Below are positions 41,589 through 43,477 of a stretch of 64,000 bases of DNA, one piece after another. A program made the translations under genes and the position numbers. Positions within the stretch are counted from its first letter, which is position 1; every line of letters begins with the position of its first letter. The notes under the pieces were generated by a model, which was given only the letters and a program-made list of their open reading frames with translations, was not told the origin of the DNA and did no database searches. The stretch is from Comamonas testosteroni ATCC 11996 (GTDB lineage: Bacteria > Pseudomonadota > Gammaproteobacteria > Burkholderiales > Burkholderiaceae_C). The DNA is taken from positions 62,001 through 126,000 of the forward strand of contig NZ_AHIL01000029.1 in the NCBI RefSeq assembly GCF_000241525.1. The letters are read 5' to 3'.

Positions 41589-42092
41589 ACACCCCGAATT
41601 GTAGGAAGCGAGCCCGCATCGGCGCTGGCGCAGCGCCAGATACTCTGGCAAAGCGAACAAGATACCGAGCGCTTTGCCCGGCAACTGGCCGCCCTGCCAC
41701 AGCTGCGCAACGCCTATGTGACCCTGCATGGCGACCTGGGTGCGGGCAAGACCACGCTGGTGCGTCACTGGCTGCGCGCCCTGGGCGTGCAGGGCCGCAT
41801 CAAGAGCCCTACCTATGCAGTGGTGGAGCCGCATGAGGCCGGCGATCTCTCTATCTGGCACTTTGACTTCTACCGCTTCGACGACCCGCGTGAATGGGAA
41901 GATGCAGGTTTTCGTGACATTTTTGCCAGCGCCGGACTCAAGCTGGCAGAATGGCCCGAAAAGGCTGCAGCGGTTACACCTGTTGCGGATATAGCTATCC
42001 ATATCGAAGCAATTGACGATGTGCAGCGACAGGTGACGCTCAAGGCTGGCACCCCCGCAGGCTGCACCGTGCTTGAAGCATTGACGGCATGA
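41571..42092 (+). CDS. tsaE: tRNA threonylcarbamoyladenosine biosynthesis ATPase TsaE
   Basis: A 173-aa P-loop ATPase required for the t6A modification. The P-loop is GDLGAGKTTLVRHWL and the family motif KSPTYAVVEPHE, then IWHFDFYRFDDPREW, is clear. The start is uncertain. I chose TTG at 41571 because AAGGAACC lies just before it. That start overlaps the first 18 bases of queG on the other strand. The frame is open further upstream without similarity. It overlaps the amidase start by four bases (ATGA). Confidence 0.85.
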   Translation: MTAAQHTPRIVGSEPASALAQRQILWQSEQDTERFARQLAALPQLRNAYVTLHGDLGAGKTTLVRHWLRALGVQGRIKSPTYAVVEPHEAGDLSIWHFDFYRFDDPREWEDAGFRDIFASAGLKLAEWPEKAAAVTPVADIAIHIEAIDDVQRQVTLKAGTPAGCTVLEALTA

Positions 42093-43477
42093 GCAAAACA
42101 ACTTCCTCCACGGCTTTTCCGGACCTGCCCCGACCGGGCCCTTCCCTGCCGGGTCTTTCCCGACTGGGTCTTTCTCGCCGCAATCTGCTGCAGGCAGGCG
42201 GCGTGGTTCTGCTGCTGGGCCGCCAGCATATTGCGCAAGGCGCGAGCATCGTGGCCGTGCGCGTCTGGCCCGCACCCGACTACTCGCGCGTCACGCTGGA
42301 ATCCGATATTCCGCTGACGGCCAAGCCGGTCTTCGTGCCCAGCCCGCCGCGCTTGGCCGTCGACATCGAGGGCCTGGATCTGAACCCGGCGCTCAAGGAA
42401 CTGGTGGCCAAGGTCCGCTCCGACGACCCCAATATCGCCAGCATCCGCGTCGGCCAGTTTGCGCCCGGCGTGGTGCGCCTGGTGATCGACCTCAAGCAGG
42501 AAGCCAGGCCCCAGGTCTTTACGCTGGCCCCGATTGCTCCCTACAAGCACCGGCTGGTGCTGGACCTCTACCCCGCCAAGGCCGTCGATCCGCTGGAAGC
42601 CCTGATCAGCGAACGCTTGCGCGATGCCGGCAGCTCGGCTGCTGCCCCGGCACCGCACAATCCCGTGATCACGACACCGCCCCCTGCGGCGATTGCGACA
42701 GCGCCCCAGGCCGACCCTCTGGGGGACCTGATTGCCCAGCGCAACCAGCGCCCCAGCACTCCTGCACCAGCGCCTGCGGTGATTGCACAGGCACCGGCGC
42801 CCGTGCCGCCGCCACCGGCTCCCGCGCCACGCCCGGCTCCAGCACCCAGGCCTGCACCCAATATTGCCACCTCGCAAAGCACGGACCGCATCATCATCGT
42901 GGCGCTGGACCCCGGCCATGGCGGCGAGGACCCTGGTGCTACCGGTCCCAGCGGCCTGCGTGAAAAAGACGTGGTGCTCAAGGTCGCCCATCTGCTGCGC
43001 GAGCGCATCAACAACTCGCGCATCGGCGGCAGCCCCATGCGCGCCTTCATGACGCGCGATGCCGACTTTTTCGTACCCCTGGCCACACGCGTGGAAAAAG
43101 CCCGCCGCGTCCAGGCCGACCTGGTGGGGGGCCTGAACGTGGGCGGACTGCAGGACCAGCATGTGCAGCGCATGCTGCTGGATATGAGCACCACAGCCCA
43201 GATCAAGGACAGCCTCAAACTGGGTACTTCGCTGCTGGGCGAGATTGGCAGCATGGCCAAGCTGCACAAGGCCCGTGTGGAGCAGGCCGGCTTTGCCGTG
43301 CTGAAGGCGCCCGACATTCCCAGCGTGCTGGTGGAAACGGCCTTCATCAGCAACCCCGAGGAGGAAGCCAAGCTGGCCTCTGCCGCCTATCGCGAGCAAC
43401 TGGCCGATGCGCTGATGACGGGCATACGCAAGTACTTCGCCCACAACCCGCCCCTGGCACGCAGCCGATCGGTTTAA
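42089..43477 (+). CDS. amiC: N-acetylmuramoyl-L-alanine amidase (AmiC-like) with internal deletion
   Basis: A 462-aa Tat-exported amidase (SRRNLLQAGG signal) with an N-terminal AMIN domain (about 50-160), a Pro/Ala-rich linker (about 195-270) and a C-terminal Amidase_3 domain. The first zinc-binding motif ALDPGHGGEDPG and the final VETAFISNPEEE catalytic block are present. After RRVQADL (residue 345) the frame passes straight to VGGLNVGG. The usual FVSIHAD segment and the following loop, about 45 residues in relatives, are missing. That segment carries a zinc-ligand His. The deletion is in frame. The enzyme normally cleaves the septal cell wall; this form is probably inactive or altered. Confidence 0.85.
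   Translation: MSKTTSSTAFPDLPRPGPSLPGLSRLGLSRRNLLQAGGVVLLLGRQHIAQGASIVAVRVWPAPDYSRVTLESDIPLTAKPVFVPSPPRLAVDIEGLDLNPALKELVAKVRSDDPNIASIRVGQFAPGVVRLVIDLKQEARPQVFTLAPIAPYKHRLVLDLYPAKAVDPLEALISERLRDAGSSAAAPAPHNPVITTPPPAAIATAPQADPLGDLIAQRNQRPSTPAPAPAVIAQAPAPVPPPPAPAPRPAPAPRPAPNIATSQSTDRIIIVALDPGHGGEDPGATGPSGLREKDVVLKVAHLLRERINNSRIGGSPMRAFMTRDADFFVPLATRVEKARRVQADLVGGLNVGGLQDQHVQRMLLDMSTTAQIKDSLKLGTSLLGEIGSMAKLHKARVEQAGFAVLKAPDIPSVLVETAFISNPEEEAKLASAAYREQLADALMTGIRKYFAHNPPLARSRSV

Follow-up and report, generated by a model that had tools for sequence, protein, structure and literature searches.

A probable natural and inactivating in-frame deletion in the only AmiC-type amidase gene found in Comamonas testosteroni ATCC 11996

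Introduction

Septal amidases and their activators are best described in Escherichia coli. According to the part of PMC9966196 that was available, His196, Glu211, His265 and Glu373 of AmiC are strictly conserved and might serve catalysis. For AmiA, the excerpted text of PMC10268282 describes Asp135 as part of the zinc site in the resting enzyme, Glu167 as the latch that keeps the blocking helix on the zinc, and an interaction helix that binds the LytM domain of EnvC.

Mutants and evolution experiments in the laboratory have shown that such amidases or their activators can be lost, and the following cases are given as far as the excerpts of the cited papers go. E. coli is hardly affected when it loses one of its amidases or two, and in Neisseria gonorrhoeae AmiC is the single separation amidase, whose loss alone leads to clumps of cells sharing cell walls (PMC6365954). 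An amiC E382* mutation arose in the long-chain lineage among three size-sorted lineages of E. coli, and the authors point out that rescue has yet to be assayed (PMC9966196). In Pseudomonas fluorescens SBW25, one nlpD mutation was recovered in 137 independent instances from 153 replicate populations, with cell chaining, and its recurrence was ascribed to an extreme mutation rate (PMC11838912). In the same strain, an in-frame deletion between 6-bp repeats in awsX is a hotspot that contributes ∼28% to the rate of mutation toward the wrinkly type (PMC8370652).

The gene described here lies in a window of 64,000 nucleotides, the whole stretch of DNA that was analysed, from the genome of Comamonas testosteroni ATCC 11996 (G000; the other G and L handles denote compared genomes and loci). 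Its product resembles E. coli AmiC (PDB 4BIN) and betaproteobacterial AmiC in the AMIN domain, the Amidase_3 domain, the catalytic Glu and the activator helix, but lacks 44 residues including the equivalent of His265. With awsX it shares an in-frame deletion hotspot between short direct repeats, whereas that case concerns another gene in laboratory evolution and the amiC case lies between natural species. It is akin to the nlpD mutants in the recurrent loss within the NlpD-amidase pathway and in the chaining that would follow; those mutants carry a point mutation in the activator and come from laboratory microcosms. The E. coli amiC E382* lineage likewise combines loss of the AmiC catalytic domain with long chains, but by a stop mutation, under artificial selection and with other amidases present. 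As in N. gonorrhoeae, a single cell-separation amidase is affected, although the gonococcal cases are laboratory mutants of another genus.

Results

An AmiC-like protein with an open frame

The original prediction, made from the letters of the window, described an intact frame with a Tat signal and an AMIN domain; an open frame, a Tat-like signal and an AMIN domain are there (Table 1). The frame encodes 462 aa with neither stop nor frameshift, which rules out truncation by a frameshift, a stop or a contig edge. The AMIN domain matches its Pfam profile, and a Tat-like stretch is visible by eye in the translation; its twin-arginine motif is what we take to be the export signal. AmiC is the best match of the protein both in NCBIfam and in PDB, with an NCBIfam score for the deletion allele alone of 359.6 bits against a model cut-off of 700. 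The Amidase_3 domain spans residues 271–447 and scores 119.1 bits against a Pfam cut-off of 27; in the genome search it reached 121.8 bits, whereas intact amiC copies within the genus scored 155–167 bits. The Pro/Ala-rich linker between the AMIN and catalytic domains (window 42655–42880) differs in length among species, with several in-frame gaps.

Table 1. Features of the amiC locus in window coordinates.
Feature	Position	Strand	Basis
amiC-like gene, in-frame deletion allele, 462 aa	42089..43477	+	open frame, domain profiles
Tat-like signal peptide, RRNLLQAGG...	42176..42250 (bounds approximate)	+	read from translation
AMIN domain, residues 56–160	42254..42568	+	Pfam PF11741, 66.7 bits
His277, kept; equivalent of E. 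coli AmiC His196	42917..42919	+	alignment; residue list in available part of PMC9966196
Glu292, kept; equivalent of E. coli AmiC Glu211	42962..42964	+	alignment; residue list in available part of PMC9966196
12-bp direct repeat CAGGCCGACCTG, reduced to one copy where the 132 bp were deleted	43112..43123	+	alignment with relatives
Kept helix DQHVQRMLLDM; equivalent of the AmiA interaction (activator-binding) helix, residues 180–192	43154..43186	+	alignment; available part of PMC10268282
Glu416, kept; equivalent of E. coli AmiC Glu373	43334..43336	+	alignment; residue list in available part of PMC9966196

The missing segment is bounded by a direct repeat

About 45 residues had been thought absent from the catalytic domain. 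The alignment with 13 relatives, a check proposed at the same time, set the gap at exactly 132 bp or 44 codons. In the relatives, the lost piece runs from FISIHAD to NKENQADL or, equally, from QADLFISIHAD to NKEN; the exact breakpoint is ambiguous because the repeat hides it. The 9-mer first noticed at 43115–43123 is present and belongs to a repeat of 12 bp, which is perfect at both edges of the segment in three of the five closest relatives (L004, L006, L007), while the identical run measures 8 bp in the other two (L003, L005). The relatives thus carry the repeat at both ends and the window keeps one copy at the junction, the pattern of a direct-repeat-mediated deletion and the one foreseen for recombination between ADL-encoding repeats. 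A deletion of this type is the simplest explanation for the gap.

The spacing between the two ends amounts to 44 residues in each of the 80 loci that could be scored (both ends were located by pattern in 80 of 107 intact-gene loci, a few genomes contributing twice, and 27 stayed unscored). The repeat as such is not unusual, as an 80-kb stretch of G016 holds 18 pairs, that of amiC included, of at least 12 bp and 24–300 bp apart. A hairpin-driven deletion has little in its favor: in four relatives, the folding energy of the segment is only ∼0.3–2.3 SD lower than that of mononucleotide shuffles, and the DNA parameters may not have been in force in this calculation. Across the 64-kb window, the 132-bp gap is the sole deletion of at least 24 bp relative to all five close relatives (summed alignment lengths of 61–67 kb each); smaller ones, of 24–38 bp, appeared in the comparison with no more than one or two of them.

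Residues lost and predicted effect on the enzyme

We aligned the protein to solved structures, with residue numbers of the papers converted to PDB chain numbers by offsets of 14 and 33, which agreed with those residues that were checked. The lost piece holds the equivalents of E. coli AmiC His265, AmiA Asp135 and AmiA Glu167, as these residues are assigned in the available parts of the two papers. The catalytic set is therefore incomplete, with the counterparts of His196, Glu211 and Glu373 kept and that of His265 deleted; the latch Glu went with the deleted NKEN stretch, and the activator-interaction helix is kept in the sequence alignment. This agrees with the original prediction, which had noted both the absence of a SIHAD-type motif (FISIHAD in the relatives) and the loss of a zinc-ligand His with it.

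AlphaFold models, built from 34- and 33-row alignments, lack in the shortened domain the strands E86–91 and E103–108 of an intact control (L032) and show low confidence at the junction, with pLDDT under 50 at residues 73–88; in the control, the regulatory stretch is itself modelled with low confidence (pLDDT under 50 at 110–150). In Foldseek comparisons with 8c0j_C, the shortened domain gave an rmsd of 8.8 Å and a TMt of 0.69, against 3.0 Å and 0.90 for L032, and over the best five solved chains the rmsd was 9–12 Å for the shortened and 3–5 Å for the intact domain. The models support misfolding of the shortened domain but are not proof of it. Because the His265 equivalent, the zinc-site Asp, the latch Glu and two core β-strands are gone, the shortened enzyme should be inactive and is probably poorly folded.

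Shorter Amidase_3 enzymes, CwlV, LytH and AmiP, which lack the regulatory insert, appear among the structure matches, and a shortened domain might in the same way rebuild its zinc site and stay active. We regard this as extremely improbable: the SIHAD strand itself is deleted, its His corresponds to His265 of the catalytic list in the available part of PMC9966196 and is invariant in all 33 intact relatives aligned (taken from the 80 loci), and the genome holds no copy of the segment elsewhere. The window protein is AmiC by descent, yet without this zinc ligand it does not merit annotation as an active amidase.

No second Amidase_3 gene found in the genome

The G000 assembly is a draft of 5.41 Mb in 63 contigs and is 100% complete. 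Whether another amidase might cover for the shortened one had been raised from the start; a profile search of the genome for a second Amidase_3 gene returned the window's amiC as its only match. No copy of the lost segment was found in G000 (best match E = 0.6) or in G017, a second Comamonas species treated below (best match E = 0.04, 17 bits, 28 residues at 50%), and the same query recovered the segment in the intact controls G016 (4.7e-22) and G013 (5.6e-19). Compensation by extra M23 or Amidase_2 genes was not seen either: the search, which matched in 8/8 genomes, gave three M23 matches and one Amidase_2 match in G000, the same as in its four close relatives searched.

Second Amidase_3 matches do occur elsewhere in the genus. 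Weaker ones lie in G014 (G014:C567:11123-11749, L180) and G008 (G008:C3:1279-1776, L179); the former belongs to a 338-aa frame in which a pattern read found no S-I/L/V-H-A-D motif. G017 has a 171-aa Amidase_3 frame (L177, 9881–10396) that lacks a signal and adjoins phage-like genes, and none of its sisters G013, G031, G007 and G019 shows a second match. As a backup enzyme for G017 we rejected this frame, judging it by eye to be a prophage endolysin.

The same deletion in a second Comamonas species

Amidase_3 matches were obtained in 51 of 53 Comamonas genomes, the exceptions being G024 (59% complete) and G025. In the latter, the amiC sequence (L030, at the end of G025:C118) meets the contig end after the AMIN domain and there is no Amidase_3 match elsewhere in the 99% complete assembly; as loss and a missing contig look alike in this case, G025 was left out of the deletion count. 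Two of the 51 carry the deletion, G000 and G017, and their amiC matches span 531 and 537 bp compared with ∼660–669 bp in the others. G017 is a single contig of 5.2 Mb, and its short amiC (L024, G017:C1:2138346-2138882 plus flank) lacks the same 44 residues: G013, G031, G007, G019 and G008 have 132 bp more at the same place. This gap is the sole deletion of at least 24 bp shared against all five of these relatives, several larger ones being present against some of them. The original prediction had named relatives that naturally lack the segment yet retain activity as a case that would speak against it; the first half of that case has one example, G017.

The G017 junction reads CAGGCCGATATG. G031 and G007 have the same GAT in their first repeat copy (G013 has GAC there), and all three have the ATG in their second copy. 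A crossover within the repeat would produce this combination, as would a separate silent change. In an amiC tree of 34 rows, of which 32 are intact and 2 deleted and from which the lost segment was omitted, the deletions fall into separate groups and require two changes, and 0% of 200 bootstrap trees are compatible with one. The row L021 (G028) is identical there to Comamonas aquatica NBRC 14918, which anchors the group in this genus. On this tree, the deletion in G017 is independent of that in G000.

We also surveyed 399 genomes of the family (383 matched) and 399 of the order (369 matched) with the junction peptide, a search that detects junction-spanning matches rather than the intactness of each gene and for which the best ∼150 matches per survey were listed. 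Among the matches listed, only G000 matched across the junction, and none was seen in the 735 other Burkholderiales genomes with a match (378, i.e., 383 minus 5 Comamonas, plus 357, i.e., 369 minus 12 Comamonas or already counted). Twenty doubtful cases, in which the match extended beyond the junction or was in a single piece, were fetched, and all 20 hold the His motif; the S-I/L/V-H-A-D motif is present in 44/44 amiC loci read other than that of G000, and these loci include 36 distinct non-Comamonas genomes. The contrast of 2/51 Comamonas with 0/735 other genomes, among the matches listed, gives a Fisher p = 0.004, a value that exaggerates the contrast, since the window had been selected on account of its deletion; for G017 alone (1/50 versus 0/735, among the matches listed), p is ∼0.06 by hand calculation.

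These data also bear on whether a polymerase or an assembler might have jumped between the repeats while the chromosome keeps the full gene. The draft state of G000 with its 63 contigs and the slight hairpin potential of the segment would be compatible with such an artefact. A repeat of 12 bp is, however, far shorter than assembly k-mers, the 64-kb window shows no comparable deletion against all five relatives, and no stray copy of the segment turned up in G000. Moreover, the same deletion stands in the single-contig G017, and no match of this kind was seen in the 735 other genomes among the matches listed, which makes an artefact quite unlikely. A natural deletion is hence the reading we follow below.

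Age and constraint of the shortened gene

In the kept codons, the G000 lineage has 12 silent and no amino-acid changes of its own, against ∼26–34 amino-acid changes expected for 12 silent ones if the scored codons were unconstrained, an expectation based only on codons at which the comparison genomes agree and thus favoring constrained ones. Taken at face value, any period without constraint on amiC covers no more than roughly a tenth of the G000 branch, or the gene is still under constraint. Intact relatives gave silent/amino-acid counts of 10/0 (G016), 32/0 (G029), 13/1 (G027), 7/4 (G018) and 10/6 (G020); three of the five thus exceed G000 in amino-acid changes. G017 has 53/7, next to 22/7 in G013, 29/2 in G031 and 17/0 in G007. 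Decay of the kept part was seen by these counts in neither G000 nor G017, which suggests that either both deletions are young or the shortened protein is still selected.

If selected, the shortened protein might be retained as a pseudo-amidase that binds septal peptidoglycan through AMIN together with an NlpD/EnvC-type activator and acts as a brake or regulator. Its frame, signal, AMIN domain and activator-binding helix are all kept, amino-acid changes in the kept codons are few (none in G000, 7 versus 53 silent in G017), and identical in-frame ends arose twice. Each of these points, however, has a plainer counterpart: the frame is dictated by the repeat spacing, which is 44 codons in 80/80 scored relatives; lack of decay is equally expected of a young deletion; the G000 counts lie within the ordinary range of intact relatives; and core strands appear to be lost in the models. 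A retained regulator therefore seems improbable to us, and a recent loss of the enzyme is the reading we prefer.

Discussion

We consider it very likely that the window carries a natural and recent in-frame deletion allele of amiC, that the sole Amidase_3 gene has thereby been lost as an enzyme, and that G017 holds an independent twin of this allele. Replication slippage or recombination between two QADL-codon repeats 132 bp apart would have removed one repeat and everything between the two. A loss of 132 bp, a length divisible by three, does not shift the frame, and the export signal, the AMIN domain, the activator-binding helix and the counterparts of His196, Glu211 and Glu373 would all stay. 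The enzyme would be left inactive, having lost two core β-strands together with the counterparts of His265, of the second zinc-site Asp and of the latch Glu. As there is no second Amidase_3 gene, septal peptidoglycan would be split slowly and cells may chain or clump.

The separate occurrence of the same deletion in another Comamonas species suggests that the site is recurrently lost and that its loss is tolerated or favored. Since repeats of such size are common (18 pairs in 80 kb), the twofold fixation of an amiC loss may reflect selection or tolerance rather than mutation rate. One could go further and picture a one-step switch, in which the fixed 44-codon QADL spacing allows repeated advantageous excision of the zinc His and the latch, leaving an exported, activator-binding but dead enzyme and chained or aggregated populations; we hold this extension to be unlikely.

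Among the matches listed from the open-licence literature, none dealt with a comparable natural deletion of amiC in Comamonas. What is new relative to the laboratory cases is the same exact in-frame loss of the sole division-type Amidase_3 enzyme, arisen independently in two natural species of one genus. The deletion in the only AmiC-type amidase found is probably real and probably inactivating, judged from genome comparisons. If so, it would become testable whether chaining caused by the loss of an amidase brings an advantage outside laboratory culture, and whether a free-living rod manages without a working enzyme of the Amidase_3 division type.
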